Assembly (NCBI RefSeq): GCF_009192765.1
Contig: NZ_VOHQ01000001.1
Span: forward strand, 558,001-622,000
From: Agriterribacter humi
Lineage (GTDB): Bacteria; Bacteroidota; Bacteroidia; Chitinophagales; Chitinophagaceae
Length of the DNA stretch: 64,000 nucleotides
Direction of reading: 5' to 3'
Shown one piece after another: positions 2,423 through 62,644 of the stretch. The notes below the pieces were generated by a model, which did no database searches, was not told the origin of the DNA, and worked only from the letters and a program-made list of their open reading frames with translations. How positions within the stretch are numbered: the first letter of the stretch is position 1; the number at the start of each line of letters is the position of its first letter. The position numbers were made by a program, and so were the translations under genes.

Positions 2423-2450
2423 CATGTAACCCGTAACTCCCCTCTCACCT
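2423..2450. repeat. Short heptad tract at convergent gap (weak)
   Basis: Four 7-nt units in register, beginning CATGTAA CCCGTAA, lie between the plug-domain gene and the convergent eboF. The last unit overlaps the eboF stop (TAG on the minus strand, bases 2451-2449). This is the weakest member of the heptad family described in the findings. Confidence 0.4.
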
Positions 2451-3801
2451 ACTCCGTAAGCTGCTTCCAGATAACATCATATACATCGGTTGCTACCAGT
2501 TCCGTTTTTCCAACAGGCTGATCAGTGATCAGTACAGGATGAAAAGATTGATCTGCGCGCACACTGCCATGCGAGCCTCTTACCAATGTGGCATCCAAAG
2601 GAATCACATCCATCACATACCTGAACCCTGCTTTTTTGCGCAGCAGTTTATACCCTGCCCGCGCTTTTGATGTCATAAATAACTCCACCGGGTCATAACC
2701 AGGCTTTTTATGTATGTCCACTGCCCTTGCATAATCGGGTGCTACGGCATCATCGAGCCAGAAATAATAAGTGAACCAGCTTTTTTCGTCCGCCATTAAT
2801 ACGATATCTCCCGAGCGCTCATGATCAATATGATATTCCTTCTGTGCTTCGCGATCCAGCACAAGCGCCACACCCGGTAAGCCGGAAACAATTTCTTTTA
2901 CCTGCGCAGTTACCGAAGAATCCTTAATATAAATATGCGCAACCTGGTGATCCGCCACAGCAAAGGCTCTGGACGCACCTGCATCTAAAAGCTCCAACCC
3001 ACGTTCTACTCTTATGCCCAGCATTCCATTTTGGCGCAGTACACGGTTGATATGAATGGGTTGATTAACCGGAGTTATACCATATTCCGATAAGAGCATG
3101 ATCCTGGCTCCCTTTCCTGAATAATAGTTAACGAGGTCTTCAACAACCTTATCTATCTCTTTTAAGTGCGTACTTATTTTTGAGAAGTCAGGACCATATT
3201 TTTGCAAACAATAATCCAAATGTGGCAGGTAAACCAGCGTAAGTGTGGGATCGTATTTTTTATCGGTAAAAACAGTGGCATCGGCAATCCATTGTGTGGA
3301 TTTGATATTGGCACCCGGGCCCCAGAACGTAAACAACGGAAACTGCCCCAGTTCTTTTTGCAGCTCATCTCTCAGCGCTGCGGGATGAGAATAGCAATCC
3401 GGCATTTTTCGCCCGTCAGCTAAATAATTGGGACGTGGCGTTACTGCGTACTCTGCACTTGAATACATATTATACCACCAGAACATTTTAGAAGTGGTAA
3501 ACGATGGATCCATCTTTTTTGCTCTTTCCCATATTTTTTCAGACCGGACTAACTTATTGGACTGCTTCCAGAACTTTATTTCACAATCGGTACGATCGTA
3601 CCAGCCATTGCCCACAATACCATGTTCATCCGGCCACTTACCGGTAATATAAGTGGATTGTACCGATGTGGTTACGGCAGGCAGCATGGGTGCAATCGTT
3701 TGTAAATGCTTATTACTGATATAGCGTTTTAAAAAGGGAGTATACTCTCCTATCAAATTAGAAGACAATCCCACAATATCTATTACAACGGTTTTATGCA
3801 T
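2449..3801 (-). CDS. eboF: EboF-like alkaline phosphatase/type I phosphodiesterase family protein
   Basis: The 450-residue protein has the type I phosphodiesterase/nucleotide pyrophosphatase fold signature: Asp8 in VVIDIVG, the candidate nucleophile Thr44/45 in AVTTSVQS, and a late RGSHGS motif (His411). Two metal-ligand motifs differ from the textbook family: the usual PDxxGHxxGP is LDYCLQKYGP (Asp196, Gln200 in place of His), and the usual DHG is EYG (Glu239, Tyr240). It is the last gene of the ebo cluster, 184 bp after eboE, a gap filled with heptad repeats. Its position identifies it as the ebo-cluster phosphatase. Whether it is active, and on which substrate, cannot be read from the sequence. 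Confidence 0.8.
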   Translation of the reverse strand: MHKTVVIDIVGLSSNLIGEYTPFLKRYISNKHLQTIAPMLPAVTTSVQSTYITGKWPDEHGIVGNGWYDRTDCEIKFWKQSNKLVRSEKIWERAKKMDPSFTTSKMFWWYNMYSSAEYAVTPRPNYLADGRKMPDCYSHPAALRDELQKELGQFPLFTFWGPGANIKSTQWIADATVFTDKKYDPTLTLVYLPHLDYCLQKYGPDFSKISTHLKEIDKVVEDLVNYYSGKGARIMLLSEYGITPVNQPIHINRVLRQNGMLGIRVERGLELLDAGASRAFAVADHQVAHIYIKDSSVTAQVKEIVSGLPGVALVLDREAQKEYHIDHERSGDIVLMADEKSWFTYYFWLDDAVAPDYARAVDIHKKPGYDPVELFMTSKARAGYKLLRKKAGFRYVMDVIPLDATLVRGSHGSVRADQSFHPVLITDQPVGKTELVATDVYDVIWKQLTE

Positions 3802-3810
3802 TATTAAGAA

Positions 3811-3873
3811 GGTTTCAGGTATGAGGTATCAGCAATTAGCTATTGGCAATCAGCTATCGGCTGTCAGCTAAAA
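3811..3873. repeat. Heptad tract, GCNATCA family
   Basis: Nine consecutive 7-nt units keep perfect register from 3811 to 3873. They start with GGTTTCA GGTATGA and pass into variants of GCAATTA, GCTATTG, GCAATCA and GCTGTCA. The tract lies between eboE and eboF, just upstream of the eboF start codon (3801, minus strand). Units vary at two or three positions while the spacing stays fixed, so this is degenerate tandem repetition rather than a simple microsatellite. Confidence 0.75.
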
Positions 3874-3906
3874 ACTACTAACGATGGGCTATGTACTCAC
3901 GTCTTA

Positions 3907-4000
3907 CTATTCACTTCTCACCTGTCACCTTCCCGCCTCGTGAAACGATAAACGTGAAACGATAGTTCTCACTATTCACCACTCACTATTCACTTCTCAC
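3907..4000. repeat. Heptad tract, TATTCAC/TTCTCAC and GTGAAAC families
   Basis: Three heptad blocks follow each other: CTATTCA CTTCTCA and variants (3907-3934), GTGAAAC alternating with GATAAAC (3940-3965), and TATTCAC/TTCTCAC (3966-4000). The last block runs into the 3' end of eboE: the eboE stop (TAG, 3988-3986 on the minus strand) and its last codons are made of repeat units. Confidence 0.75.
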
Positions 4001-5203
4001 TTTCAGCAATGCCATCACCCATTGCATTTCTCTTACAATAGATTGGGTAAGCGGTAGTCTTTTATCATCGGGCAATACTTCCCAGGTATAGGTTTCAATT
4101 TCAAGGTGTGCTGTAAACGGTTGCTGTTGGTGAATGGATAATACCTGTTCAATGTCTTGTTGTGTACACTGCAATACCCCGTATCCTTCCACAAACAATG
4201 GCACATGAAAATGAGCCCGCCATTCCGTTACTTCGGTATTATACGCATCGGGCAAAGCATCAGGCATATCCGCATATCTTTTCAATTTACCATTTTGCTG
4301 CATGGCCACCACCTGGTGCAGGTAAGTAGGTTCATTAAACCGGCTGAAGGCCTCAATTACAGGCGCTCTTTTTTCGAGTTCTGCGGGCAACTCCGCTTTC
4401 AGCGCTGCGCTGATCTGAATCTTACCTGTTTTGATACCCAGTTCCCGGATTTGTTTGATCACAGCCGCATGATCTTCATAACAAATAGCAAAATGGCATA
4501 CATCATAGCAAAGCTGAATATGCTCTTTTATGTGAAAAGCAGCAATATCATCACTGCATCCAAAAAGTTTTGCAATGTAAGGTATGCCCAGTGGCAGCAA
4601 ATATTGCGTATACCAGCTTATAAATTCTCCCCCTTCTCCCAATAATCCATCAGGCTCAGGTTCAATATCAATATGTATTGACTTTCCGGTAGACTGCTTT
4701 ATCTGGATCAACTGGTCAAGCACCGCCAATAAATGAAGTGTTGATTTTTCAAAAACCTCGGGCAGTTGTTCCGTGCTGTGCCAGAACCTGTACGATAAAG
4801 GAGATGTGGAAATTCCTCCGTCCATACCATCGGGCAGCAGCACCGATAATATTTGTGCCAGCCTGATCGTATATGCTTCGCGTTCAGTGGTAGTCCAGTC
4901 GGGTGCATGCACTTTATCTTTTACTACGGTATGGTGAAAACCGCCATAAGGAAATCCGTTCATGGTAAAAACATAGCAGTCATTATCGTGCAGCCACTGC
5001 TGAAAAATTTCGAGATTCTTCTCTTTGATCAGCTCAATACTTGCCATGTTGGAAAGCCGGAGCCCTATGCCAAAAGATTTACCGGGTGATACCTGTTTTT
5101 TGATGACAGGAATATGCTCCTTTAACTGTTTAAAGTGATCATCCCAGCTTTCACCGGCATGTATATTACTGCAATAGGTGAGATGTCCGAGTACTGTTTG
5201 CAT
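3986..5203 (-). CDS. eboE: EboE-like TIM-barrel (xylose-isomerase-like) metabolite traffic protein
   Basis: The 405-residue protein has features of the xylose isomerase-like/AP endonuclease 2 TIM-barrel superfamily, including HIDIEPEPDG and CYDVCHFAICYED, which look like metal-binding strands. In ebo clusters a protein of this type is called EboE (metabolite traffic protein); no reaction is known to me. It starts 9 bp after the eboD stop, so it is almost certainly cotranscribed and may be translationally coupled. The last residues (VRSE) and the stop are encoded by a heptad repeat tract, which suggests the tract was inserted or expanded into the gene end. Confidence 0.82.
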   Translation of the reverse strand: MQTVLGHLTYCSNIHAGESWDDHFKQLKEHIPVIKKQVSPGKSFGIGLRLSNMASIELIKEKNLEIFQQWLHDNDCYVFTMNGFPYGGFHHTVVKDKVHAPDWTTTEREAYTIRLAQILSVLLPDGMDGGISTSPLSYRFWHSTEQLPEVFEKSTLHLLAVLDQLIQIKQSTGKSIHIDIEPEPDGLLGEGGEFISWYTQYLLPLGIPYIAKLFGCSDDIAAFHIKEHIQLCYDVCHFAICYEDHAAVIKQIRELGIKTGKIQISAALKAELPAELEKRAPVIEAFSRFNEPTYLHQVVAMQQNGKLKRYADMPDALPDAYNTEVTEWRAHFHVPLFVEGYGVLQCTQQDIEQVLSIHQQQPFTAHLEIETYTWEVLPDDKRLPLTQSIVREMQWVMALLKVRSE

Positions 5204-5212
5204 ATTCTTTTT

Positions 5213-6358: not shown

Positions 6359-6438
6359 GTTGTTGCTAAAATAGTACGGAAACAGGATATTACGCCATTT
6401 TAAAACCGTAAAAATAAGTTATTAACAAATCATTGCCA

Positions 6439-7338: not shown

Positions 7339-7348
7339 ATGCTGTATT

Positions 7349-9215: not shown

Positions 9216-9253
9216 ATTATCTTTAACCTGCTGCTTTAATAATTAATAATATG

Positions 9254-15890: not shown

Positions 15891-15915
15891 TTTAGTCTTT
15901 TTTTTATTACGAAAT

Positions 15916-15930
15916 TGAATACCCTATTCA
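15916..15930. promoter_or_regulatory. Inverted repeat in receptor leader
   Basis: TGAATA and TATTCA flank CCC, with a further GAAA/TTTC match outside. It lies between the candidate -7 box (15961) and the start codon (15890). The position suits a repressor operator such as Fur, but the match to a Fur box is loose. Confidence 0.3.
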
Positions 15931-15960
15931 TTTCAATTGACAAGCAGTTTTTTAACGCTG

Positions 15961-15968
15961 CAAAGATA
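15961..15968 (-). promoter_or_regulatory. Candidate -7 promoter element of the siderophore receptor
   Basis: The minus strand reads TATCTTTG, matching TAnnTTTG, 71 bp before the start codon. No convincing -33 element was found. Confidence 0.4.
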
Positions 15969-16039
15969 TTTTCGGCCTTGCCATTTCGTTTACGCTAAAA
16001 GGAAAAATGGTTACGTAATGAGGAAATTCGAAGGAATAC

Positions 16040-16081
16040 AAAGACAAATAACCAAAAGACAAATAACAAGAAACAAATAAG
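16040..16081. repeat. Heptad tract, AAAGACA/AATAACC family
   Basis: Six units of 7 nt (AAAGACA AATAACC and variants) in register. It lies in the 918-bp non-coding region between mgtC and the siderophore receptor (15891-16808), in which I find no credible gene. Confidence 0.6.
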
Positions 16082-16200
16082 GTTCAAATTCGAAGCGAAA
16101 TCCGAGAGAGGTCAGAGTTGAAAAGAGAAAGGTGAAAGAAGGCGTACCCAGCCTGCGGTTAGTAGTTTCTCAACTGATTGATTGTCGCAAAGCCGAAATA

Positions 16201-16270
16201 AACCACAAACAATAAACGATAACTCAGGTTGAAACGGATATTCCCTGAAACTTGAAACCTGTGACCTGGG
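16201..16270. repeat. Heptad tracts, AACNATA and CCTGAAA families
   Basis: AACCACA AACAATA and a third unit lie at 16201-16221, and CCTGAAA CTTGAAA with variants at 16244-16270. The second block has the word family also seen at 26731, 35881, 44623, 58477 and 61376. Confidence 0.65.
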
Positions 16271-16609
16271 TCAATCTCAAACTGCCCATCGCTGTGGATA
16301 TCAAACTATAAATTCTCTTTATCTTCTATCTGAAATCATGCCCTACGTACTTTTCCGTTGCAGAAGGTATATTAAGCATACAACCCTTTTCAATAAAACA
16401 TAGGATGGCAGCGGGTTTTGCTTTAAGCCCCATAACATTGCAGATAACCGCATTTCAATATCAGCCACCACCCATAGTAGTTTTCCCAATGCGTAGTAGA
16501 GCAGCTACAGTTTTTTTAAAATTCTTTTACGTTACAATAATATAAAGCACTATTTTTTTACACATCTTATTCACGTTCCTTTGTGCAACAAATCCAAATC
16601 CTGTTTTAA

Positions 16610-16637
16610 GATCCCTGATCCCTGATCCAATATCCAA
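16610..16637. repeat. Heptad tract, GATCCCT family
   Basis: Two exact copies of GATCCCT are followed by GATCCAA and TATCCAA in register. The tract lies inside a small minus-strand open frame (16527-16787), which argues that this frame is not coding. Confidence 0.6.
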
Positions 16638-16808
16638 AGAGAAGCATTTAATCCAATGCCTTTGAGAAAGCAATGTTTTTAACCGTCCGTATAAAAACAT
16701 TGAACCGGCAGCAATAAGCTGCAATTGAATATCCATATCGTATGAAACCCTGAACAGCAGCAGAGAGTGCAATAACGTTGATTTCATTCCTCTGTAACCA
16801 ACCGGAAA

Positions 16809-17960: not shown

Positions 17961-20900
17961 ATGAAATTTCAAAATAAAGAAAGGCAAAACAAAGATGTAT
18001 TTTCCGAACTGTTCCCCCAGGCTATTTCGGTGCTAAAAAAAACGATTATCAACCCACTATTTTCTGATAATCTTTTTCAAAAATATGCCAATGAAAAACC
18101 GCCCCTGCGTTCCGAGCTTTTTACCCTGCAGCAAATGGAGCATCATGCCAGGGATTTGGCGGCCAAACATATATTAACCAAAGGCGAGCCTTCAGAAAAA
18201 ATGCTGAAACGATTAGGAGAAAATGAACGCCTCCTGATGGAAATTCACGACCTGCTTACCAAAACAGTTAAGTCTAACATCCGCATTGCTCCGGCCGGTG
18301 AATGGCTTCTGGATAATTTTTATCTTATTGAAGACCAGGTAAACACAGGCAAAAAGCATTTACCCAAAGGATATAGTAAAGGTTTACCCCAACTCGCCAA
18401 TGGAGCATCGGAAGGTTTGCCAAGGGTATATGATATTGTTGTAGAGCTAATTTCGCACAGCGATGGCAGAGTTGATTTCGAAAGCTTATCGGGTTTTATC
18501 AGCGCCTACCAGTCGGTAACCAATCTTCAACTGGGTGAGTTGTGGGCTATTCCTATTATGCTCCGCCTTGCTTTAATTGAAAATTTACGTCGTTTATCAA
18601 CGGAGATAGCATTAGACATACTGCATAAAAACCTGGCCGATTACTGGGCCGACCAGATGCTGGACACCCTTGATAAGGATCCTAAAAACCTGGTGGTGGT
18701 AATAGCCGATATGGCCAGGTCGAAACCACCGGTAGTAGGCGCTTTTGTGGCGGAACTAACCAGGCGGCTCCAGGGCAGGGGTGCATCACTGAGCTTACCG
18801 CTTAGCTGGATTGAACAATTTGTGTCAGACATGTCACTGACCGGCGCCGAACTGGTACACATCGAAAATCAAAAACAGGCTGCCCGCCAGGTTTCTGTAA
18901 GCAACAGCATCAGCAGTCTTCGGTTTTTAAACAGCACCGACTGGCGCAAGTTCGTAGAACAGGAAAGCGCAGTTGAAAAAATATTGAGTGAAGATCCGGA
19001 TGGCATATATGAGAAAATGGATTTCTATACGAGAGATCATTACAGACATGTGGTTGAAAGAATATCCAAATACAGTACCTTGTCCGAAAAGGAAATAGCC
19101 CAAATTGCCATAGACCAGTCCAAATTGAGCCCGGAAGATGGCAGAAAGAAACATGTGGGATATTATCTTGTAGACCGCGGAGTAAGCAAAGTTGAAAAAA
19201 TGGCAAAGGCAAATATGCCTTTTACTACAAAATTACGAAGACATTTCGCTGGGCTGCCTTTGTTTTATTACCTGTTGAGTATCGCCCTGCTTACCTTTTT
19301 GTTTTGCCGCATAATCACTTATAACATCACCCAGAACCTGCAAACCTGGCAATACGGCCTGCTGCTGCTGATTTGCGCTGTTGCCACAAGCCAGCCGGCA
19401 ATAATGTTATTGAACTGGCTCACTACGCTGCTTACACGCCCCGGCCCGTTGCCGAGGATGGATTTTTCTTCAGGAATACCACAGGAGCACAGCACACTTG
19501 TTGTTATACCTACGATGCTTACAAATACCGATGCGGTTGATGAACTGGTTGAAGAGCTGGAAGTGCGCTTTGTGGCTAACCGCGATGACCACCTGCATTT
19601 TGCACTGCTCACCGACTTTAAAGACGCCGGAGCACAAACACTCCCTGAAGATGAGCCGCTGCTTGCATACGCGAAAAATAAAATCATTGAACTCAATGAG
19701 CGATACGGCAGATCCACACCCGATATTTTTATGCTGTTCCATCGCCCACGTAAGTGGAATGAAAAAGAAGAGGTATGGATGGGGCATGAACGAAAGAGAG
19801 GAAAGCTTGAAGAGCTGAATGCCCTGCTGAGGGGTAAAGGCGATGACAACTTTTCATCAATTACAGCCAACAGAAGCCTTTTTGCAGGCATTAAATATAT
19901 TATTACGCTCGACACAGATACCAAACTGCCCAGGGAAGCCGCATGGAAAATGACAGCTACTTTAGCGCACCCGCTTAATAAAGCGGTGTATAGTGATCAT
20001 AAAAAAAGAGTAACAGAAGGTTATACCATTTTACAACCCAGGGTTTCCAACAGTCTTCCCGGACCTACCGGTTCTTTATATGCGCGGATACATGGCAATG
20101 AACCCGGTATTGATCCTTATACACGGATGATTTCTGATGTATACCAGGACCTCTTTGCAGAAGGTTCCTTTATTGGAAAAGGTATTTACGATATAGATAC
20201 TTTTGTGCAATCGCTTAAAGGCAGATTTCCTGAAAACCGGATTCTTAGTCATGACCTGGTTGAAGGCTGCTATGCACGTTCAGGTTTTTTGAGCGATGTG
20301 CAGTTATATGAAGACTACCCACCCAGCTACTATGCCGATATGCAGCGCCGTCACCGCTGGATACGTGGCGACTGGCAGATACTGAGATGGTTGTTTCCGC
20401 TTGTGCCGGCGCCAGACAAAAATTACAGAAAAAACCCGCTGAGCACTTTATCGCACTGGAAAATTTTTGACAATATCCGGCGCAGTCTCGTACCCGCCTG
20501 CCTGCTGCTGTTGCTGTTATACGGATGGCTGTTCACTTCCGGTAGTTTCTGGACTTTTACCGTAGTGAGCATCATTGTTATTCCTTCCATCATAAAATTT
20601 ATATGGGAAGTATTCAACAAGCCAAAGGACATTGGCTTTTATCCTCACCTTTTATTTACGATACACGCTGCAGCAGATAACTTCTTCCGTCACCTGCTTG
20701 ACCTTGTATTTCTTCCTTATGAAGCTTTTATAAATACCCATGCCATTTTGCTCACGGCCTGGCGCATATTCATTTCAAAACGCAAATTACTGCAATGGAA
20801 TCCTTATGGCAATTCAATACGTTCCACTCCAAAAACGCTTGCAGCAAACTATGCCAGCATGTGGATGGTGCCTGCTTTTGCAACAGCAGTGGTACTGTTT

Positions 20901-23900
20901 TTACTGTATAAAGATCTTCCGTCTGTTGCAGTAGATCTTTGCGTGTTAATATTGTGGATGCTTTCTCCCGGCATTGCTTACCTCGTGAGCATGCCCCGCA
21001 GGCCAAAGAAAGCTGCACTTAATGAAGACCAGATCATTTTTCTTCAAAAGCTTTCCCGGAGAATATGGGCTTTCTTTGAAAAATTCGTAAACTATGAAGA
21101 CAACTGGCTTCCCCCTGACAATTATCAAAAAAAGCCCGGGCCAAAAATTGCGCACCGTACATCACCTACCAATATCGGGCTATCACTACTGGCTAATCTT
21201 ACCGCTTTTGATTTTGGCTATTTATCGGCCGGGAGATTAATAGATCGCACTACCCGTACGCTTAATACCGTACAGACATTGGAAAAGTACAGGGGGCATT
21301 TGTATAACTGGTACGACACGATAACACTCTCCTGTTTACAGCCAAGATACATTTCAACCGTAGACAGTGGGAATTTTACAGGACACCTGCTTACCTTAAA
21401 ACAGGGTTTACTCGCGTTAAAAGAAAACAAAATATTTTCTGCCAAAGCCTTTGATGGTCTCCGGGACACAATAGCCATATTGCTCGAAAAAAATGAGCAT
21501 GACAAATTTTTGCCGGAACTAAATAAAGAAATTGAAGCGGTTCAACTCAATCCACCAACATCGCTTCCCCAACTGATGCCATTGCTGGAAGATCTGAAAA
21601 ACAGGTATAATACGATTGCCGCGCAATATGAAAATATCAATGAAGAGTCCGACAGTGAAATCCGGGAATGGGTGGCCCTGTTAGGCGTACAGCTTAATGA
21701 CTTTGCGGGTGATATGGCCACTTTGGCGCCCTGGTTACTGATGCAGCCCCCATCGCCTGCATTTCAGAACATCATTAATGAAATAGATTATATTCCAACG
21801 CTAACACAATTGTGCAGTATACCAACAGAAGTTTTGCCAAAAGTAAAATCGCATTACCAGCAATCCAATACGCCGCAGGAAAACGACTGGTTAGACATGC
21901 TGGTATCCCATATCATTCAATCTGCCAAACGCGCCAAAGAAAGAATACTCGACCTGGATGATCTGGCGAGGCAATGCGATGAGTTCGCAAATGTTGAATA
22001 TGATTTTTTGTACGATAAAGCACAGCATCTGCTCGCTATAGGCTATAACGCCGAAGAACACCGGCGCGATAACAGTTATTACGATTTGCTGGCCTCTGAA
22101 GCAAGACTTGGAAACTTTGTTGCCATAGCCCAGGGAAAATTACCGCAGGAAAGCTGGTTTGCACTGGGGCGGCAACTCACCAGTTTTGGTTCAGCGCCGG
22201 CTTTGCTTTCGTGGAGCGGCTCCATGTTTGAATACCTTATGCCCTTATTGGTGATGCCATCGTATGAAAACACTTTGCTGGATCAAACGCATAAAGCCGT
22301 AGTACAAAAACAAATTGATTACGGCAATAAAAGAGATGTACCCTGGGGTATCTCGGAGTCGGGATATAATATGATAGACGCCCATATGAACTATCAGTAC
22401 AAAGCATTTGGTGTACCCGGAACCGGTTTCAAACGAGGACTGGGAGAAGAACTGGTTATATCTCCCTATTCCTCCATTATGGCTTTAATGGTAATGCCTG
22501 AAGAAGCATGCCACAATCTTCAGCTTATGGCAAAAAAGGAATTTGCCGGTATTTATGGTTTTTATGAAGCGATAGATTATACCCCCTCCCGTTTGCCGAG
22601 AGGGCAGGAACATGTTATCATTCATTCCTTTATGGTACATCACCAGGGGATGGCTTTATTGTCGCTTTCGCATTTGCTGCTTAATCAGCCTATGCAAAAA
22701 CGCTTTACGGCAGATGTGCAGTTCCAGGCAACACTGTTGTTATTACAGGAACGCATACCCCGTGTTACGGCGTTAAGCGCTCCTAATATTCATATTGCAG
22801 ATGCAGCAAGCGAGGTGAGCAAGGAAGATGATGCTTTTATGCGTGTTATCAGCACCCCTCAAACCGCCACTCCCGAAGTACAATTGCTTTCCAACGGAAG
22901 ATACCATGTTATGGTTTCCAATGCGGGGGGAGGCTACAGCAGGTGGAAAAATATTGCTGTAACCCGCTGGCGTGAAGACAGCACCTGCGACAACTGGGGC
23001 AATTTCTGCTTTATAAGAGACCTCGAAAACAATGAGTACTGGTCATCTGCTTACCAGCCCGCATTACAGGGTGGCGATCATTATGAAGCAGTATTTTCGC
23101 AGGGACGCGCTGAATTCCGCCGCCGCGATTTTTCTATTGAAGCGCATACCGAAATAGTGGTATCGCCTGAAGATGATGTGGAACTGAGAAGATTGCATCT
23201 TACCAACCGGTCGCGTAAAAAAAGAATAATTGAAGTAACCAGCTATGCCGAAGTAGTACTGGCGCCGGTGGGGTCGGATGCTGCGCATCCCGCTTTCAGT
23301 AACCTGTTCGTACAAACCGCTTTGCTGGAGCAAAGTCATGCTATTGTATGCACACGCCGTCCGCGTTCGCAGCACGAGCAGCCACCTTCCATGTTTCATT
23401 TAATGAAAGTATATCATGCAACCATACAAAATATAGCCTACGAAACAGACAGAACAAAATTTACCGGCCGAGGCAACACTATTCATCAGCCGTTGGCCAT
23501 GCAACAGGCTGCATCACTTTCTTCTACCCAGGGTTCTGTACTGGATCCTATTGTTTCTATACAATACAGAATAGAAATTGATCCGCAGCAAACCGCCGTA
23601 ATTGATATGATAACCGGCATTGCAGAAACGAAAGAAGACTGTAATGATATGATAGATAAATACCAGGATAAATTCCTGGTAGACCGCGGTTTCGAATTGT
23701 CGTGGACCCATAGCCAGATCGTATTGCGCCAGATCAATGCAACAGAAGCAGATGCACAACTGTATGCAAGATTAGCCAGTGCGGTTATTTATACGGATCC
23801 TGAAATGCGGGGTGCTTCCGACCTGATAGCGCGCAATAACCGCGGGCAATCGAGCCTTTGGAGCCATTCTATTTCAGGCGATCTGCCCATTGTGCTCGTG

Positions 23901-26696
23901 AAGATTGAGAACGCAGGCAATATTGAACTGGTAAAACAAATGATCCAGGCGCATGCTTACTGGCGCTTAAAAGGAATGACTGTTGACCTGGTTATCTGGA
24001 ATGAAGATCATGGCAGTTACAGGCATACACTTCAAAACCAGATCATGTCGCTGGTAGTTCCGCTGGTGGGTGCCCAAATCAATGAAGATCCCGGCGGCGT
24101 TTTTATACGCTCTGCAGATCAGCTCTCCAATGAAGATCACATTCTTTTTCAAACGGTGGCCCGGGTGGTGTTGTCCGACAGATTCGGTTCATTAGAAGAA
24201 CAGATCAACAGGAACATAAAAATAAAAAATGTAATTCCTTATTTTACCCCGGTTAAATTTTATCCTTCAACGCCTACTGCTGTTGCATTACCCGAAGACC
24301 TGCAGTTCTTTAACGGCACCGGTGGTTTTTCGGCAAACGGAAGAGAATATATTATTATAACACAGCCAGGGAAAGTAACCCCTGCCCCATGGTGCAATGT
24401 AATTGCCAATGCTGAATTTGGAACGATCATATCCGAAAGCGGTCAGGCATATACCTGGCTGGAAAATGCACATGAGTTCAGGCTTACCCCGTGGAATAAT
24501 AACCCGGTAAACGACCTGGAAGGAGAATGTTATTACCTGCGTGACGAGGAAAGCGGAAGATTCTGGTCGCCGGCTCCATTGCCTGCAAGAAGCAAAACAC
24601 CGTACATTACCAGGCATGGCTTCGGTTACAGTACGTTTGAGCACAGTGAAGATGGTATCTATTCGAAAATGACCGTGTTTGTTGACCTTGATACCGGTAT
24701 AAAGTTTACTATGCTGAAAATTCATAACCGGTCAGGAAGGCAAAGGAAACTATCTGTTACCGGGTATGTGGAATGGGTGCTGGGAGAGTTTCGCCCGAAA
24801 ACACAAATGCATGTGGTAACCTCCGTTGAAGGCGACATAGGAACCATCTTTGCCCGGAATGCCTACAATACGGAATTCGCCAACCGCGTGGCCTTTTTTG
24901 ATGCCGATGGCATGCCGGATTCCTTTACCTGCGATAGAAAAGAATTTCTTGGCCGCAACGGATCTTCACGCAATCCGGCTGCTATGAATAAAGTGAAACT
25001 TTCAGGAAAGTCAGGTTCTGCGCTCGATCCCTGTGCAGCTATACAAACCAACCTTGATTTAGCCAATGAAGAATCGCATGAAATTATTTTCAAACTGGGA
25101 GCTGCAAAAACGCATGGGGATGCACTGCACATCATTGAACAATTTAAAACCCATGCCAATATTTACCAGGCTTTGGATAAAGTAACCCATTTCTGGCAAC
25201 ACACATTAGGAACCATCCAGGTGGATACGCCCGATGCGGCATTAAACATTCTTGCCAACGGTTGGCTGAACTATCAAACGCTCGCCTCCAGGATATGGGG
25301 CAGAAGTGGCTATTATCAATCGGGCGGGGCATTTGGCTTCAGAGATCAGTTGCAGGATATTTTATCGCTGATGTATGCCAAACCCGATATAGCACGCCAG
25401 CAAATATTATTGAACGCTTCCAGGCAGTTCAGGGAAGGAGATGTACAGCATTGGTGGCATCCGCCTTCGGGAAGAGGGGTGCGCACCACCTGCTCCGATG
25501 ATTTTTTATGGCTGCCTTATGTAGTGGCAAAATACACAGTGCAAACAGGTGATACAGGAATATTGGAAGAACCTGTCGGTTATCTTGAAGGCCGGATGCT
25601 GAACGAGGGAGAAGAATCCTATTACGACCTGCCCTCCCGTTCCAGTCAAACAGCCAGTTTGTATATACATTGTACAAAGGCGATAGAAAGAGCGCTTCGT
25701 TTTGGAGAACATGGATTGCCATTAATAGGATCGGGCGACTGGAATGATGGCATGGATAAAGTGGGGGAAAAAGGAAAGGGGGAAAGCGTATGGCTTGCTT
25801 TTTTCCTGTATGATGTATTAACACGCTTTGGCACAATTGCAACAAACCGAAATGATGCAGCCTTTGAGCAAAAATGTAGTGAACAGGCTGAAACCCTCAG
25901 GAAAAATATTGAAGCAAATGCATGGGACGGACAATGGTATCGCCGTGCTTATTTTGATGACGGTACGCCTTTGGGCTCCTCGCAAAATGAAGAAGCCAGT
26001 ATTGATTCCATTGCTCAAAGCTGGAGCGTATTGTCTAAAGCCGGTGCCCCTCAAAGAATAAACATAGCCATGCAGTCGGCAATTCAACACCTGGTTAAAA
26101 AAGACGCGGGGCTGATCCAGTTGCTGAACCCGCCTTTCGATAAGTCGGACCTTAATCCCGGCTATATCAAGGGATATGTTCCGGGTGTACGTGAAAACGG
26201 CGGGCAATATACACATGCCGCCATATGGCTGGTAATGGCTTTGATGGCTTTAAAACAAAAGGAAGAGGGCTGGGAATTATTACAAATGATTAACCCTGTT
26301 AACAGGGGCAGCAGTGCCGAAACCATTGCAAAATATAAAGTGGAGCCTTATGTAATAGCTGCCGATGTATATTTCGAGCCTTCGCATCTTGGCCGCGGAG
26401 GATGGACATGGTATACCGGCTCTGCAGGGTGGATGTATCAATTGATACTCGAATCGTTTTTGGGTGTACAGCAAAAAGGGGAGCAACTGCATTTTGACCC
26501 CAGCACCCCACCATCATGGTCTTCATTTAACATCCGGTACAAGTATATGGATACTTTATACCATATCGGTATCAGAGCATCCGGGGCTGGCGAACATAAA
26601 ATAACGGTTCAGGTAGATGGGAATACTTCGGAAAATACTTTTCTTCAATTGCAAAACGATGGCCGGGAACATACAGTGGAAGTTGCGATACAGTAG
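17961..26696 (+). CDS. Cyclic beta-1,2-glucan synthase-like protein (NdvB/Cgs type)
   Basis: A 2911-residue membrane protein, close in length to rhizobial and Brucella Cgs (about 2830-2870). Order: soluble N-terminal region; two TM helices (about 432-490); a GT84 glycosyltransferase core with DTDTK near 651 and the RRHRWIRGDWQ motif near 796; four or more TM helices (about 845-1010); a glucoamylase-like segment; and a long C-terminal GH94 phosphorylase-type region with GSGDWNDGMDKVG near 2590. The family makes cyclic beta-1,2-glucans from UDP-glucose and exports or processes them in the periplasm. All modules seem intact. No separate exporter (NdvA) is adjacent. A linear glucan product or a different chain length cannot be excluded. 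Confidence 0.92.
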   Translation: MKFQNKERQNKDVFSELFPQAISVLKKTIINPLFSDNLFQKYANEKPPLRSELFTLQQMEHHARDLAAKHILTKGEPSEKMLKRLGENERLLMEIHDLLTKTVKSNIRIAPAGEWLLDNFYLIEDQVNTGKKHLPKGYSKGLPQLANGASEGLPRVYDIVVELISHSDGRVDFESLSGFISAYQSVTNLQLGELWAIPIMLRLALIENLRRLSTEIALDILHKNLADYWADQMLDTLDKDPKNLVVVIADMARSKPPVVGAFVAELTRRLQGRGASLSLPLSWIEQFVSDMSLTGAELVHIENQKQAARQVSVSNSISSLRFLNSTDWRKFVEQESAVEKILSEDPDGIYEKMDFYTRDHYRHVVERISKYSTLSEKEIAQIAIDQSKLSPEDGRKKHVGYYLVDRGVSKVEKMAKANMPFTTKLRRHFAGLPLFYYLLSIALLTFLFCRIITYNITQNLQTWQYGLLLLICAVATSQPAIMLLNWLTTLLTRPGPLPRMDFSSGIPQEHSTLVVIPTMLTNTDAVDELVEELEVRFVANRDDHLHFALLTDFKDAGAQTLPEDEPLLAYAKNKIIELNERYGRSTPDIFMLFHRPRKWNEKEEVWMGHERKRGKLEELNALLRGKGDDNFSSITANRSLFAGIKYIITLDTDTKLPREAAWKMTATLAHPLNKAVYSDHKKRVTEGYTILQPRVSNSLPGPTGSLYARIHGNEPGIDPYTRMISDVYQDLFAEGSFIGKGIYDIDTFVQSLKGRFPENRILSHDLVEGCYARSGFLSDVQLYEDYPPSYYADMQRRHRWIRGDWQILRWLFPLVPAPDKNYRKNPLSTLSHWKIFDNIRRSLVPACLLLLLLYGWLFTSGSFWTFTVVSIIVIPSIIKFIWEVFNKPKDIGFYPHLLFTIHAAADNFFRHLLDLVFLPYEAFINTHAILLTAWRIFISKRKLLQWNPYGNSIRSTPKTLAANYASMWMVPAFATAVVLFLLYKDLPSVAVDLCVLILWMLSPGIAYLVSMPRRPKKAALNEDQIIFLQKLSRRIWAFFEKFVNYEDNWLPPDNYQKKPGPKIAHRTSPTNIGLSLLANLTAFDFGYLSAGRLIDRTTRTLNTVQTLEKYRGHLYNWYDTITLSCLQPRYISTVDSGNFTGHLLTLKQGLLALKENKIFSAKAFDGLRDTIAILLEKNEHDKFLPELNKEIEAVQLNPPTSLPQLMPLLEDLKNRYNTIAAQYENINEESDSEIREWVALLGVQLNDFAGDMATLAPWLLMQPPSPAFQNIINEIDYIPTLTQLCSIPTEVLPKVKSHYQQSNTPQENDWLDMLVSHIIQSAKRAKERILDLDDLARQCDEFANVEYDFLYDKAQHLLAIGYNAEEHRRDNSYYDLLASEARLGNFVAIAQGKLPQESWFALGRQLTSFGSAPALLSWSGSMFEYLMPLLVMPSYENTLLDQTHKAVVQKQIDYGNKRDVPWGISESGYNMIDAHMNYQYKAFGVPGTGFKRGLGEELVISPYSSIMALMVMPEEACHNLQLMAKKEFAGIYGFYEAIDYTPSRLPRGQEHVIIHSFMVHHQGMALLSLSHLLLNQPMQKRFTADVQFQATLLLLQERIPRVTALSAPNIHIADAASEVSKEDDAFMRVISTPQTATPEVQLLSNGRYHVMVSNAGGGYSRWKNIAVTRWREDSTCDNWGNFCFIRDLENNEYWSSAYQPALQGGDHYEAVFSQGRAEFRRRDFSIEAHTEIVVSPEDDVELRRLHLTNRSRKKRIIEVTSYAEVVLAPVGSDAAHPAFSNLFVQTALLEQSHAIVCTRRPRSQHEQPPSMFHLMKVYHATIQNIAYETDRTKFTGRGNTIHQPLAMQQAASLSSTQGSVLDPIVSIQYRIEIDPQQTAVIDMITGIAETKEDCNDMIDKYQDKFLVDRGFELSWTHSQIVLRQINATEADAQLYARLASAVIYTDPEMRGASDLIARNNRGQSSLWSHSISGDLPIVLVKIENAGNIELVKQMIQAHAYWRLKGMTVDLVIWNEDHGSYRHTLQNQIMSLVVPLVGAQINEDPGGVFIRSADQLSNEDHILFQTVARVVLSDRFGSLEEQINRNIKIKNVIPYFTPVKFYPSTPTAVALPEDLQFFNGTGGFSANGREYIIITQPGKVTPAPWCNVIANAEFGTIISESGQAYTWLENAHEFRLTPWNNNPVNDLEGECYYLRDEESGRFWSPAPLPARSKTPYITRHGFGYSTFEHSEDGIYSKMTVFVDLDTGIKFTMLKIHNRSGRQRKLSVTGYVEWVLGEFRPKTQMHVVTSVEGDIGTIFARNAYNTEFANRVAFFDADGMPDSFTCDRKEFLGRNGSSRNPAAMNKVKLSGKSGSALDPCAAIQTNLDLANEESHEIIFKLGAAKTHGDALHIIEQFKTHANIYQALDKVTHFWQHTLGTIQVDTPDAALNILANGWLNYQTLASRIWGRSGYYQSGGAFGFRDQLQDILSLMYAKPDIARQQILLNASRQFREGDVQHWWHPPSGRGVRTTCSDDFLWLPYVVAKYTVQTGDTGILEEPVGYLEGRMLNEGEESYYDLPSRSSQTASLYIHCTKAIERALRFGEHGLPLIGSGDWNDGMDKVGEKGKGESVWLAFFLYDVLTRFGTIATNRNDAAFEQKCSEQAETLRKNIEANAWDGQWYRRAYFDDGTPLGSSQNEEASIDSIAQSWSVLSKAGAPQRINIAMQSAIQHLVKKDAGLIQLLNPPFDKSDLNPGYIKGYVPGVRENGGQYTHAAIWLVMALMALKQKEEGWELLQMINPVNRGSSAETIAKYKVEPYVIAADVYFEPSHLGRGGWTWYTGSAGWMYQLILESFLGVQQKGEQLHFDPSTPPSWSSFNIRYKYMDTLYHIGIRASGAGEHKITVQVDGNTSENTFLQLQNDGREHTVEVAIQ

Positions 26697-26702
26697 GCTC
26701 GT

Positions 26703-26751
26703 AGGTGCAAGGTGCAAGTTGCAGGGCCGTCCCTGAAACCTGAAACATGAG
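26703..26751. repeat. Heptad tract after the glucan synthase gene
   Basis: Seven contiguous 7-nt units, starting with AGGTGCA AGGTGCA and ending with ACATGAG. The upstream ATG at 26747, in frame with aconitase, is part of the last unit, which is a reason to prefer the aconitase start at 26819. Confidence 0.75.
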
Positions 26752-29542: not shown

Positions 29543-29572
29543 ACCGCTGCACCACAGGGACACACAGAGAAG

Positions 29573-29758
29573 TTTATAATTTATGGTTTATGGTTTGTAG
29601 TTCTTTAAACTCCAAACTGTAAACCTTTCTTTGCGTCCGCTGCTTCTTTGCGCACTTTGCGTGAAACAATCCGAAATCTGGGGAAATACAAAGCAAGTGG
29701 AATCAAATAAAATTCAAATGTCAAATTCAAAGCAGAAAATTCGAAATTCGAAGACAAA
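29573..29758. repeat. Heptad tracts, TTTATGG, AAACTGT and AATTCGA families
   Basis: TTTATGG TTTATGG and neighbours run at 29573-29600, AAACTCC AAACTGT and a third unit at 29607-29627, and eight units from TCAAATA to the exact pair AATTCGA AATTCGA at 29703-29758. They fill part of the 423-bp convergent gap between acnA and the YncE-like gene. Apparent ORFs here (29631-29870) are not coding. Confidence 0.72.
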
Positions 29759-29822
29759 TGCAACTATAATAATAAACTGTAAACTAAAAAGATCCGAAGC
29801 CGGGAATTCGAAATCCGAAAGA

Positions 29823-29972
29823 AGCTGTCAGCAATCAGTTTTGAGCTACGGCCAATACATGATGAAGTAGTATTCACTATCGTTAGTAATTAACGCACTG
29901 ATACCTGACGGCTGATTGCTGATAGCCCTAAATGCAACGATAAACTACAAATTACAAACCACAAACTATCTT
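29823..29972. repeat. Heptad tracts, GCTGTCA and TTACAAA families
   Basis: AGCTGTC AGCAATC (29823-29836), CTGATTG CTGATAG with one preceding unit (29905-29925), and CTACAAA TTACAAA with neighbours (29938-29972). The last block runs into the 3' end of the YncE-like gene and contains its TAG stop (29968-29966, minus strand). Confidence 0.72.
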
Positions 29973-35846: not shown

Positions 35847-35915
35847 TTTGAAATTTGAAATTGAAGTCCGATAGCTCAATCCTGTAACCTGAGACCTGAA
35901 ACCTGCTTCAAATTT
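35847..35915. repeat. Heptad tract, TTTGAAA and CCTGAAA families
   Basis: TTTGAAA TTTGAAA and a third unit (35847-35867), then CCTGTAA and three or four further CCTG units (35881-35915). This is the clearest tract in a divergent gap. Confidence 0.7.
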
Positions 35916-44512: not shown

Positions 44513-44523
44513 TGGTAAGATGG

Positions 44524-44545
44524 GTTACATGTTGCAAGTTACAAG
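44524..44545. repeat. Heptad tract, GTTACAA family
   Basis: GTTACAT GTTGCAA and one more unit, 12 bp after the esterase stop. Confidence 0.55.
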
Positions 44546-44622
44546 GCACGCACATTCCATTACAAATCATTACTATACTTTAGTCAGTTGCCGGGAACGG
44601 AGACCTGCAACTTTTGTTTCTC

Positions 44623-44678
44623 CTTGAAACTTGTTCCCTGAAACCTGAGACCTGTAACCTGCACCCGGCAACTCACAC
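44623..44678. repeat. Heptad tract, CCTGAAA family
   Basis: Eight contiguous units: CTTGAAA CTTGTTC, then four starting with CCTG, then two divergent units. The TGA stop of YigZ (44675-44673, minus strand) lies in the last unit. This is the cleanest CCTG-type tract. Confidence 0.75.
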
Positions 44679-56571: not shown

Positions 56572-56621
56572 AAATGCAACACCAATCAACAATAACTAAA
56601 CATCGCTTAAAATATCGCGTT

Positions 56622-57314: not shown

Positions 57315-57328
57315 TACGAAACGCTACT

Positions 57329-57376
57329 GTTCGCGGCGTCCTCGCCGCGAACTTTCTTATTATCGCCTCCGGCGAT
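57329..57376 (+). terminator. Double hairpin after the second lipoprotein gene
   Basis: GTTCGCGGCG (57329-57338) pairs perfectly with CGCCGCGAAC (57343-57352) around TCCT, followed by a T-rich stretch; ATCGCC (57362-57367) and GGCGAT (57371-57376) form a second stem. The first works as a terminator; its GC-rich form also resembles REP elements. Confidence 0.65.
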
Positions 57377-57448
57377 GGCCCAATATTATTAGTTAAGAGA
57401 CCCAACTTCTACTACCGGCAAATCATGTAGTTTCGCATAAAAAGCATA

Positions 57449-58432: not shown

Positions 58433-58476
58433 AAGGGGGTGATTGCCTGATTGGTTCCCTTCTTTGAGAGGGCGTC

Positions 58477-58511
58477 CCTGTAACTTGCAACCTGTAACCT
58501 GCTGCCCTACC
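58477..58511. repeat. Heptad tract, CCTGTAA family, at the convergent gap
   Basis: CCTGTAA CTTGCAA and three further units. The TAG stop of the M13 peptidase gene (58509-58507, minus strand) lies inside the last unit. Confidence 0.7.
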
Positions 58512-60549: not shown

Positions 60550-60652
60550 ACGAATCTGTTTTCTTTTTTGAATGAAGCACTTAAAGGAAACACAATTATA
60601 TTAAAAATGCAATAGTATACACTACAAATTTTAAAGTATGATTTTCATACCT

Positions 60653-61342
60653 CTAACTCCTGGCGCCGAATAATAAACTGCCAATTCTAACCATATTGCT
60701 TCCTTCCTCGATAGCAATCGGGTAATCATTGCTCATGCCCATGGAAAGGGTAGTGAGTGGTAAGGGGTGAATGGCCAGTGATGAGTGGAGGGCAGGTTGC
60801 GCAGGTAACGAGAACTGATCGTATAATGATTTCAGGTAACGGAATTCTGTTCTTATGGTTTCCCTGTCATCTGTTAATGATGCCATGCCCATCAGTCCTT
60901 TTATTGCTACATTATTCAATCCCGAAAGGCTTTTTACTATTTCTTCCAGTTCGTTTTCATCCAGTCCAAATTTTGTTTCTTCACGTGCTATATGCACCTG
61001 CAGCAATACGGAAATGGTTCTGTTACCCCTGGTAGCCTGCTTATTGATCTCAGCCAAAAGCCTCAGGCTGTCCACGCCATGAATTAAATGAACAAAAGCC
61101 GCTATTTCCTTTACTTTATTGCGCTGGAGGTGACCTATAAAATGCCAGCGGATATCACCGGGTAAGTGCTTTTGTTTTTCCACAAGCTCCTGCACGTAGT
61201 TTTCACCAAAATCGCGTTGACCCAGATCATATAAAGTACGAATGTCATTAACGGGCTTGGTCTTAGATACTGCAACCAACACTACATTTTTACTATCCAG
61301 TTCTTTTTTTATACTTTGATATGCTTCAATATTTACCGCCAT
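60653..61342 (-). CDS. YggS-family PLP homeostasis protein
   Basis: 229 residues, normal length. The PLP lysine is in LVAVSKTKP, and ENYVQELVEKQ, RWHFIGHLQRNKVK and LSMGMSNDYPIAIEEG are hallmarks. The family regulates free PLP and has no catalytic activity known. It is 72 bp downstream of a heptad tract after the dehydrogenase. Confidence 0.95.
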   Translation of the reverse strand: MAVNIEAYQSIKKELDSKNVVLVAVSKTKPVNDIRTLYDLGQRDFGENYVQELVEKQKHLPGDIRWHFIGHLQRNKVKEIAAFVHLIHGVDSLRLLAEINKQATRGNRTISVLLQVHIAREETKFGLDENELEEIVKSLSGLNNVAIKGLMGMASLTDDRETIRTEFRYLKSLYDQFSLPAQPALHSSLAIHPLPLTTLSMGMSNDYPIAIEEGSNMVRIGSLLFGARS

Positions 61343-61375
61343 GAATTGCTTATTGTATATCCCTGAATTCTATAA

Positions 61376-61414
61376 CCTGTAGCCCCTTACCTCCCTGTAA
61401 CCTGTAACTCCCCC
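61376..61414. repeat. Heptad tract, CCTGTAA family, between yggS and acyl-CoA dehydrogenase
   Basis: Includes the exact pair CCTGTAA CCTGTAA at 61394-61407 and a further unit at 61376. The TAG stop of the dehydrogenase gene (61416-61414, minus strand) touches its end. Confidence 0.65.
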
Positions 61415-62568
61415 TACTTCAATATCCCCCTTCCAATCACTATCCTTTGCACTTCGCTGGTGCCTTCATATATCTGTGTAATTTTTGCATCGCGCATCAG
61501 GCGTTCTACATGATATTCTTTTACATAGCCATAGCCTCCGTGAATCTGCACTGCTTCTGTAGTAACCCACATAGCTGTTTCAGAAGCATATACTTTAGCC
61601 ATAGAACTGCTAAGTGTATAATCATTACCGTTGTCCTTTTCCCATGCCGCCCGCAAACACAATAACCGCGCGGCTTCAATACGGGTTGCCATGTCTGCCA
61701 GTTTAAACTGTATAATCTGGTGATGGGCGATCTCTTTACCAAAGGCCTTGCGCTGTTTCGCGTAATCAACCGCTCTTTCATAGGCCCCGGAAGCTATGCC
61801 CAACGCCTGCGCTGCAATGCCGATGCGCCCGCCAGCCAGTGTTTTCATGGCGAAGCTAAAGCCAAAGCCATCATCGCCTATGCGGTTTTGTTTGGGCACT
61901 TTTACATCCTGGAACATAACACTGTGCGTATCGCTTCCCCTGATGCCTAATTTATTTTCTTTTGCTCCAACTGTTATACCTGCGGTATTTTTTTCTACAA
62001 TAAAAGTATTAATGCCTTTGCTGCCTTTTGATACATCTGTTTGCGCCATTACCAGGTATATGCTGGCAGTTTTGCCGTTGGTGATCCAGTTTTTGGTTCC
62101 GTTCAATACATAATGATCGCCTTTATCTTCGGCTATGGTATGCTGTGAGGTTGCATCACTCCCGGCTTCCGGTTCGCTGAGCAAAAAAGCACCCAGGTAT
62201 AAGCTCCCCTCTTTACGGCCCTGGGCCAATGGAGTAAGGTATTGCTGCTTTTGTTCTTCGCTGCCATATTTTTCCAAACCCCAGCAAACCAGGCTATTGT
62301 TAACGCTCATGCATACACTCACACTTGCATCTATTTTGCTTATTTCTTCCATGGCCAGCACATAACTGATGCTATCCATACCTGCACCTCCGTATTCGGG
62401 CGCAGTCATCATTCCCATAAAACCCAGTTCCGCTAATTTTAAGACCTGTGCTTCAGGAAACTGTTGCTTCTCATCTCTTTCTATTACACCCGGTAAACAT
62501 TCATTTTGTGCAAAATCTCGCGCTGCTTTTTGAATCATCAATTGTTCTTCATTCAACTGGAATTGCAT
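61414..62568 (-). CDS. Acyl-CoA dehydrogenase
   Basis: 384 residues from ATG 62568, where MQFQLNEEQLMIQKAARDF is the family N-terminus; the upstream 21 residues in frame are not. LSEPEAGSDATS and NGTKNWITNGKTA line the FAD/substrate site, and the catalytic Glu is in QIYEGTSEVQRIVI. The type is short/branched chain (Bcd/AcdA-like). It oxidises an acyl-CoA to the enoyl-CoA. Confidence 0.95.
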   Translation of the reverse strand: MQFQLNEEQLMIQKAARDFAQNECLPGVIERDEKQQFPEAQVLKLAELGFMGMMTAPEYGGAGMDSISYVLAMEEISKIDASVSVCMSVNNSLVCWGLEKYGSEEQKQQYLTPLAQGRKEGSLYLGAFLLSEPEAGSDATSQHTIAEDKGDHYVLNGTKNWITNGKTASIYLVMAQTDVSKGSKGINTFIVEKNTAGITVGAKENKLGIRGSDTHSVMFQDVKVPKQNRIGDDGFGFSFAMKTLAGGRIGIAAQALGIASGAYERAVDYAKQRKAFGKEIAHHQIIQFKLADMATRIEAARLLCLRAAWEKDNGNDYTLSSSMAKVYASETAMWVTTEAVQIHGGYGYVKEYHVERLMRDAKITQIYEGTSEVQRIVIGRGILK

Positions 62569-62616
62569 AGTACTGTTATTTAAAAGAAAACAAAAATACA
62601 AGAATTGAACTAACAA

Positions 62617-62644
62617 CCGTTCACCCTTCACTTTTACCTTCCGG
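62617..62644. repeat. Weak heptad tract upstream of the dehydrogenase
   Basis: CCGTTCA CCCTTCA and two looser units. One of few near-tracts in a divergent gap. Confidence 0.35.

Follow-up and report, generated by a model that had tools for sequence, protein, structure and literature searches.

The window analysed here, a stretch of 64,000 nt from Agriterribacter humi (positions 558001-622000 of contig 1; the genome assembly comprises 34 contigs and 5.69 Mb), carries in its intergenic spacers a family of degenerate tandem arrays in which a period of 7 nt is kept while the repeated word drifts, and in which the G-rich strand mostly runs 5' to 3' from the gene edge into the spacer. Neighbouring arrays of opposite skew stand predominantly in the order G-rich then C-rich, and the same gene junction can hold different words, or no array, in related species. 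The origin that we tentatively prefer, with chances that we judge to fall just short of even, is self-remodelling spacer DNA shaped by slippage in 7-nt steps, inverted copying and seeding between loci.

A total of 864 kb of the A. humi genome was analysed, comprising positions 1-400000 of contig 1, positions 1-400000 of contig 12 and the window. Genes were called using a custom script and 486 intergenic spacers of at least 30 nt, totalling 125,576 nt, were extracted. A match/mismatch period score was employed with a threshold of at least 12 for the counts over 864 kb and of at least 9 for the list of tracts in the window, and the null was obtained from five dinucleotide shuffles of the spacers or, for coding DNA, from a single shuffle. 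Three further sets were used for comparison: stretches of genus relatives (G028, G203, G195 and G123 for the polarity and placement counts), 118 loci from other genomes, which were picked by word and not by orientation and in which genes are simple open reading frame (ORF) calls, and 40 Bacteroidota stretches, one per genome, also picked by words. Among the 118 loci, the proteins nearest to those of A. humi, judged from a handful, were encoded on contigs of a Sphingobacteriales metagenome-assembled genome (up to 72.8% identity), in keeping with membership of Bacteroidota. Gene order was compared with up to 11 genus relatives, using junction lengths projected from alignments.

The spacers of A. 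humi yielded 71 period-7 tracts against a shuffle mean of 0.6, compared with no period-6 tract (0.2 shuffled) and 15 period-8 tracts (0.4 shuffled), confirming the degenerate heptamer family described in the first-pass annotation and providing the excess over periods 6 and 8 that it had proposed to look for genome-wide. Periods 14 and 21 were also raised, with 43 and 14 tracts, respectively. Coding DNA of the same 864 kb displayed no clear period-7 excess (5 tracts against 3 in the single shuffle). Within the window, Tandem Repeats Finder (TRF) returned 42 rows, 21 of them with period 7, three with period 6 and five with period 8; two of the period-7 rows (2519 and 33310) lie entirely within ORFs and may be due to chance. 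Outside the arrays by which they had been selected, the tract counts of the 118 loci for periods 7, 6 and 8 were 97, 12 and 30, with none in shuffles, and the corresponding numbers in the 40 Bacteroidota genomes were 32, 13 and 11 (shuffles 0, 4 and 2). At a score of at least 12 the tracts occupy approximately 3.1 kb of the 125.6 kb of spacer DNA (approximately 2.4%) and occur in 51 of the 486 spacers, and the original description of arrays filling many intergenic gaps was therefore too strong. The observation that the period is kept and the sequence is not is real: in the 26 arrays of at least 42 nt, the identity between units decayed from 0.72 at a lag of 7 nt through 0.66, 0.58 and 0.55 to 0.50 at a lag of 35 nt. 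Adjacent units are thus far from the near-identity of microsatellites, from which the arrays had rightly been distinguished, and A/G changes, read on the G-rich strand, were the most frequent kind of difference between them (240 of 646).

A circular motif search over the 71 arrays identified RGTTWNA (score 2.38, against 1.60 with a standard deviation (sd) of 0.05 when unit columns were permuted), and the main words recognised by eye were GGTTNCA, GGTGARA and RGTATRA, with GGTTGCA present in 11 and TTGCAGG in 13 of the 71 arrays. Words pass gradually into one another along single arrays, and the low-G words TTTGTAG and AGTGAGA share arrays with G-richer ones. The pattern CCTGNAACCTGNAACCTG has 90 matches in the A. 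humi genome, overlaps counted, and its reversed control has none. Other dialects were seen by eye in other genomes (AGTACNA, AGTYTAA, RGTGAAA and RGTAYGA): the words are dialects, and it is the architecture that is shared across genomes. A scan run without a control found CCTGNAA in at least 118 stretches from contigs labelled with many phyla. A phylum-wide grammar RGTNNNA was rejected, as the A. humi arrays fit it but the pattern had 5149 matches against 5161 for its reversal over 395 genomes; some words, GGTGAAA among them, fit both, and the two cross-genome word tests behind the grammar used genomes selected by word. Provision of tandem stop codons was also rejected as a purpose: sense stops in 56 co-directional tracts amounted to 0.073 per nt, a slight excess over the 0.061 (sd 0.0035) of shuffled tracts and the 0.063 of antisense stops, and no stop codon is present in GGTTACA or GGTTTCA, both of them common words.

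Edge polarity was counted for arrays with a clear G/C skew lying at most 40 nt from a gene edge. The G-rich strand pointed into the spacer in 41 of 45 such arrays in A. humi (stop edges, 32 of 35; start edges, 9 of 10), and is accordingly the sense strand after stops and the antisense strand before starts. The same polarity was found in the genus relatives (39 of 41), the 118 loci (85 of 105) and the 40 Bacteroidota stretches (15 of 17), whereas array-free edge windows gave control fractions of 0.50-0.58 (A. humi 150/260, itself a slight bias with p=0.015; genus relatives 49/96; 118 loci 92/184; Bacteroidota stretches 96/181). Near edges the polarity in A. humi was stable at all thresholds tried, from 52/65 to 32/33, and at the main threshold it reached 34/35 within 20 nt of the edge, weakening with distance to 47/67 over whole spacers. 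Period-8 arrays have the same polarity (9/9 in A. humi, 17/21 in the 118 loci, 3/4 and 2/3 in the other two sets). Orientation is mostly set by the gene edge, irrespective of word or gene direction. A comparison with replication direction, also suggested in the first-pass annotation, gave no link, as the G-rich strand agreed with the local GC skew in 29 arrays and disagreed in 33, and replication was rejected as the source of the orientation. The earlier remark that CCTG words read on the plus strand except at 3811 was correct; however, it does not reflect replication polarity but arises because the arrays at 26732, 44637, 58477 and 61376 lie at right-hand edges and the G-rich end at 3811 lies at a left-hand edge. 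The tract at 3810-3882 (skew 0.07) and those at 26732 and 58477 fall outside the 45 counted arrays, and their strands match by word.

Neighbours of opposite skew at most 150 nt apart were arranged G-then-C rather than C-then-G in ratios of 9:1 in A. humi, 48:2 in the 118 loci and 7:2 in the 40 Bacteroidota stretches, compared with 193:125 for random windows in array-free spacers. Lone arms are also common among the A. humi arrays. Stop edges hold 35 of the 45 counted edge arrays, and promoter spacers are avoided in A. humi, where, at spacer lengths of 100 nt or more, a tract occurs in 2 of the 71 divergent spacers and in 44 of the 281 other ones (p=0.0026), and in its genus relatives (2/28 against 32/105); the 118 loci agree with this (13/71 against 92/233).

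Members of the genus differ in how densely they carry arrays: G028 has 42 period-7 tracts in 160 kb, G203 has 27 in 138 kb, G195 has 7 in 40 kb and G123 has 0 in 40 kb. Individual gene junctions displayed turnover. Ten of 11 relatives retain the gene order at junction 3802-3985. The spacer there measures 184 nt in A. humi, 223 nt in G203 and 172 nt in G201, with arrays making up 70-76% of it in all three; it measures 3-4 nt in G123, G195 and G199 and 21 nt in G028, while G197 has 34 nt with a C-rich array and G202, G198 and G196 have 56-177 nt with no scored tract. At junction 61343-61413, with order kept in 7 of 11 relatives, the degenerate CCTGTAA words of A. humi (61376..61408, minus strand) are below threshold; their counterparts are long arrays in G203 (approximately 18 units of the GGTGTGA/GGGATGA type), G195 (unequal units forming a perfect stem of 25 bp) and G201 (a hairpin of the CAGGGTG/CACCCTG type) and a shorter one in G202 (GGTTGCA type), with no array in G196, G028 and G199. 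At junction 44513-44672, compared in seven relatives, G028 has both the gene order and an array, G203 has an array with broken order and the other five have no tract; in G199 and G195 a seemingly ordinary terminator hairpin, judged by eye, stands at the array site. For 39 gene pairs conserved between A. humi and G203, arrays were present in both spacers in 5 cases, in one only in 2 and in neither in 32; the five spacers with arrays in both agreed at 0.80-0.90 of ungapped positions, most being heavily gapped, and 19 array-free spacers at a median of 0.83. These junction comparisons indicate that arrays are inherited at a site for a while and are then replaced, lengthened or lost. Unlinked loci of A. 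humi share array-rich stretches that are 74-90% alike over 45-114 nt, among at least 46 pairs, and one family of such stretches has a common non-heptamer core. The first-pass annotation had recognised the arrays themselves but had missed the G-then-C pairing, the edge orientation, the promoter avoidance and the turnover of words at the same junction.

Heptamer repeats of cyanobacteria go by the name STRR. Among published systems, the closest are the G-rich heptamers of two Xanthomonas, (GGGANTN)n, and one Nostoc, GGGGA(C/T)T (Rehm et al., 2015; PMC4692102), a study that examined G-quadruplexes and, in its accessible text, found no function. According to that text, these repeats resemble those of A. 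humi in their degenerate 7-nt unit, mostly intergenic location, scarcity between divergent ORFs, G-rich strand that is sense after stops and antisense before starts, lack of replication-strand preference and occupation of the same junctions with other lengths or sequences in sister species; the inverted pairs of Xanthomonas are convergent, as here, and Nostoc has few pairs. Unlike the repeats described there, those of A. humi rarely contain GGG runs, comprise several word families per genome that slide together, include period-8 arrays of the same polarity and, in A. humi and two relatives, make up most of a spacer of 172-223 nt where other relatives have 3-4 nt. TAACTGA direct repeats were reported in Beggiatoaceae, cyanobacteria and five Bacteroidetes (MacGregor, 2015; PMC4679880), which corrects the earlier statement that heptamers lacked a description in Bacteroidota. 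The accessible part of that report also describes heptamer arrays of two Cyanothece strains that differ mostly by insertions and deletions (indels) in 7-nt increments, and repeats that, as here, are intergenic heptamers for which close relatives can have a shorter, repeat-free spacer between the same genes. However, TAACTGA is described there as one fixed word, in the type genome mostly forward and just upstream of starts, whereas the A. humi arrays have many words, lie mostly at stop edges and are antisense at start edges; their main words differ from TAACTGA, which itself was not separately counted. In most genomes, heptamers were found to be the most frequent unit of long repeats, and slippage was proposed (Mrazek, 2007, as cited in PMC4679880 and PMC4692102); with respect to such long simple sequence repeats, as the citing papers present them, adjacent units here are only approximately 72% alike. 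Tandem heptamers of Calothrix are cited in PMC4692102, and the accessible text of PMC4060949 contains nothing specific to these arrays. For Bacteroidota, no published account of either edge polarity or convergent pairing was recognised in a search that was thin on subscription papers.

The A. humi arrays are thus not a first: they have the Xanthomonas/Nostoc architecture with different words and a wider spread, and without the quadruplex. In the accessible text of PMC4692102 and PMC4679880, each heptamer word is dealt with separately (GGGAATC, GGGGAYT, TAACTGA); because period, polarity, pairing and placement are common to the Xanthomonas/Nostoc repeats and ours and the words are not, a general explanation is unlikely to lie in a single word or in G-quadruplexes. 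The edge-polarity rule is a simple one, and any genome can serve to test it. A mutational origin of the polarity would reveal a hitherto unknown process, asymmetric between strands, by which bacterial spacers are built; a selective origin would indicate that a constraint on gene edges has been overlooked.

In the origin preferred here, non-coding DNA would enter a gene junction, usually on the stop-codon side, as an array or as a bipartite unit consisting of a G-rich heptamer array, a loop and a C-rich heptamer array. The array would grow and shrink through tandem duplication, in increments of 7 and sometimes 8 nt, with the word drifting through point changes, and period and polarity would outlast the spelling. 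A second arm would arise by inverted copying, through fold-back or template switching, which would explain why both arms of a locus draw on a single word family and why some long hairpins occur. Copies at unlinked loci may seed one another, generating a genome-specific dialect, and elements would persist after genes, where nothing else is needed, and be excluded from promoter spacers. The G-rich strand would be the one that is extended or folded back, and the arrays would have no sequence-specific function. The decay of unit identity, the higher-order periods and the published 7-nt indels of Cyanothece arrays (PMC4679880) support tandem 7-nt steps with drift. Inverted copying is supported by the perfect stem of G195 and by an ordered complementarity of the arms (28.9 against 25.7, p=8e-5, 48 pairs) that only the 118 loci display.

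Several results weigh against this origin. The arms of A. humi loci were not complementary unit by unit (18.2, against 18.5 with units permuted and 16.2 with the arm of another locus; p=0.25, 9 pairs), leaving ordered palindromes in these loci unsupported, and the 40 Bacteroidota stretches showed no effect of order on complementarity either (7 pairs, p=0.5). Folding z-scores barely set array spacers apart, with medians of -0.81 against -0.55 for co-directional spacers and of -0.98 against -2.04 for convergent ones. Array indels between A. humi and G203 were not visibly multiples of 7 in what are poor alignments, and the likeness between unlinked loci could largely be due to shared words and not to copying. 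Neighbours of the same skew are common as well, with 10 pairs in A. humi (GG 7, CC 3), 17 in the 118 loci (GG 10, CC 7) and 3 in the 40 Bacteroidota stretches, in which divergent spacers were not avoided (6/58 against 12/177). Finally, both the slippage step and the cause of the polarity are inferred rather than directly observed.

The rival explanations each account for part of the evidence. Plain neutral microsatellites, with local 7-nt slippage but without inverted copying or exchange between loci, would provide the preferred 7-nt step, the decay of identity with lag and the promoter avoidance, and would be consistent with the 7-nt polymerase-footprint idea (Mrazek, 2007, as cited in the accessible text of PMC4679880 and PMC4692102). 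However, they are strained by the edge polarity, which they do not predict, any more than they predict the G-then-C order, the recurrence of the same words at many loci (GGTTGCA) or a core common to several loci, and we consider this explanation unlikely, if still worth a hearing. Decidedly unlikely is that the arrays are selected 3'-end structures acting as terminator, mRNA-stabiliser or insulator hairpins: arrays occur at start edges too and in a junction that is only 3-4 nt long in relatives, lone arms are common, words turn over and the folding z-scores are hardly better than those of other spacers, against which stand the preference for stop edges, the large hairpins predicted for some array spacers and the apparent terminators of G199 and G195 at the array site of junction 44513-44672. 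A mobile family resembling repetitive extragenic palindromic (REP) elements or miniature inverted-repeat transposable elements (MITEs), with a heptameric body, would account for the similar 45-114-nt stretches at unlinked loci, for a long insert where the genes of relatives adjoin and for the array-bearing stretch upstream of a NusB gene that is absent in G203. It is nevertheless improbable, given that words differ between species at one site, that Y1 domains are present in 12/12 genus genomes including array-poor ones, and that no fixed ends or target duplication were recognised by eye, no systematic search having been made.

G-quadruplex or i-motif elements, in which a folded G-rich strand would act on nearby genes, were considered for the Xanthomonas and Nostoc heptamers of PMC4692102, whose strand polarity, siting at gene edges and avoidance of divergent spacers are those of the A. 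humi arrays, and 29 of the 71 A. humi arrays have at least four GG runs. Words of the GGGANTN/GGGGAYT kind, with G runs of at least three, are not what the arrays contain, however: only 1 of the 71 has four GGG runs, which makes G-quadruplexes unlikely as a common cause, low-G words occur within the same arrays and the period-8 arrays have the same polarity, leaving this explanation very little chance. Degraded coding sequence is almost certainly wrong. Nothing points to it beyond a few tracts overlapping ORF ends, coding DNA has no clear period-7 excess and three relatives have 3-4 nt where A. humi has 184 nt. It is a long shot that the arrays are scars of break healing, in which the 3' ends at a break within a spacer would be extended by repeated self-templated 7-nt steps of the G-rich strand and then joined, a G-rich array followed by a C-rich one being left in the geometry of a telomere fusion; if true, one rule would give edge polarity, convergent pairs, drifting words and insertion into near-zero junctions, in unrelated phyla. 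Growth at the inner end predicts a gradient of unit similarity, and none was seen (0.789 against 0.794; 156 arrays, p=0.92); no enzyme was identified, and no search for one was made.

Three further candidates were rejected. Loss of the hairpin nuclease SbcCD as the cause gave a raw p=0.0002 over 395 genomes of the phylum (raw p=0.74 for reversed-pattern words and p=0.15 for both together), a difference that disappeared on stratification by family (p=0.38). Within the genus, where the nuclease is patchily distributed and the counts had at first seemed promising, SbcD was above the family cut-off in only 3 of 12 genomes (G123, G195 and G196), some assemblies being fragmented; pattern matches numbered 1, 10 and 33 in these three and 3 to 216 in the nine without SbcD, and the SbcD-bearing G195 still has its seven period-7 tracts. 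A link to Y1 transposases was discarded since the REP-associated Y1_Tnp domain is found in all 12 genus genomes, array-rich and array-poor alike. Gene-order breaks at arrays (2/8 array spacers against 0/33, p=0.034) are too few, and contig ends may contribute; the spacers that coincide with breaks relative to G203 are 44513-44672 and 58433-58506.

At the lower threshold, 18 tracts were found in seven spacers of the window, at or near many of the coordinates listed in the first-pass annotation; the sites named at 29823, 33506, 37776, 61376 (TRF score 30) and 3966 scored under 9, the last being a repeat that crosses from the spacer into an ORF end (TRF scores 39 and 55). In spacer 3802-3985, the left tract (3810..3882, plus strand) starts 8 nt from the left gene edge and is G-rich at that end, its words sliding from AGGTTTC through AGGTATC to AGCTATC/GGCTGTC. 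The right part (3906..4005, minus strand) consists of TATTCAC/TTCTCAC words that are C-rich on the plus strand and contains a core, GTGAAACGATAAAC, that is found again at other genomic sites; the last 20 nt of this right part, beyond the spacer end at 3985, enter an ORF end. A core TTTATCGTTTCACGTTTATCGTTTCACG flanked by GTGA-type heptamers was observed in this spacer and at the unlinked loci C1:229459-229926 and C12:200989-201236 (C1 and C12 denoting contigs 1 and 12), which are 78-86% alike. Spacer 15891-16808 holds mixed short tracts away from any edge (16044..16268, no strand assigned; ACAAATA, AAAGGTG, AATAAAC and CTTGAAACCTGTGACCTG; scores 9-10) and a GATCCCT tract detected by both TRF and the period score (16610..16637, minus strand). 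A 59-nt spacer contains a G-rich left arm, AGGTGCA AGGTGCA AGTTGCA (26703..26723, plus strand), 6 nt past the edge after the stop of ORF 17961-26696, and a C-rich right arm, CCTGAAA CCTGAAA (26732..26750, minus strand), at the start of the next ORF, with a skew of -0.25 that is below the filter; this G-then-C pair separates an ORF of 2911 codons from its neighbour. The convergent spacer 29543-29965 has a left TTTATGG/TTTGTAG tract (29573..29624, plus strand) whose halves pair with each other in the predicted fold, a short AATTCGA tract (29737..29752, no strand assigned, score 9) and right tracts of GCTGATT and AAACTAC/AAACCAC, the latter C-rich on the plus strand, that end at the ORF edge (29898..29965, minus strand). 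Upstream of the NusB-family gene lies a divergent spacer that, unlike most of its kind, carries a tract: a TTTGAAA pair and a CCTGTAA/CCTGAGA/CCTGAAA array (35847..35905, minus strand), both absent from the orthologous spacer of G203. The convergent spacer 44513-44672 combines a G-rich left arm GTTACATGTTGCAAGTTACAAG (44524..44545, plus strand, score 9) with a C-rich right arm of CCTGAAA/CCTGAGA/CCTGTAA words detected by the period score (44637..44670, minus strand). In another convergent spacer, 58433-58506, a CCTGTAA/CTTGCAA array (58477..58501, minus strand; skew -0.20, below the filter) lies at the right edge.

Two dispersed families were observed outside the window. Period-8 arrays with GGTAAGAC / ACCGTAAG words at C1:118943-119160, C1:120517-120798 and C12:199774-199959 are 72-76% alike and G-then-C by eye, forming an octamer sister of the heptamer arrays. 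A non-heptameric family, CAGCGCCAGGGTCTCATGG...GACCCCGGCGCG, was found at C1:39084-78375, C12:189207 and C12:218715, with copies that are 74-96% alike over approximately 55-140 nt and clustered in the 39-78 kb region of contig 1.

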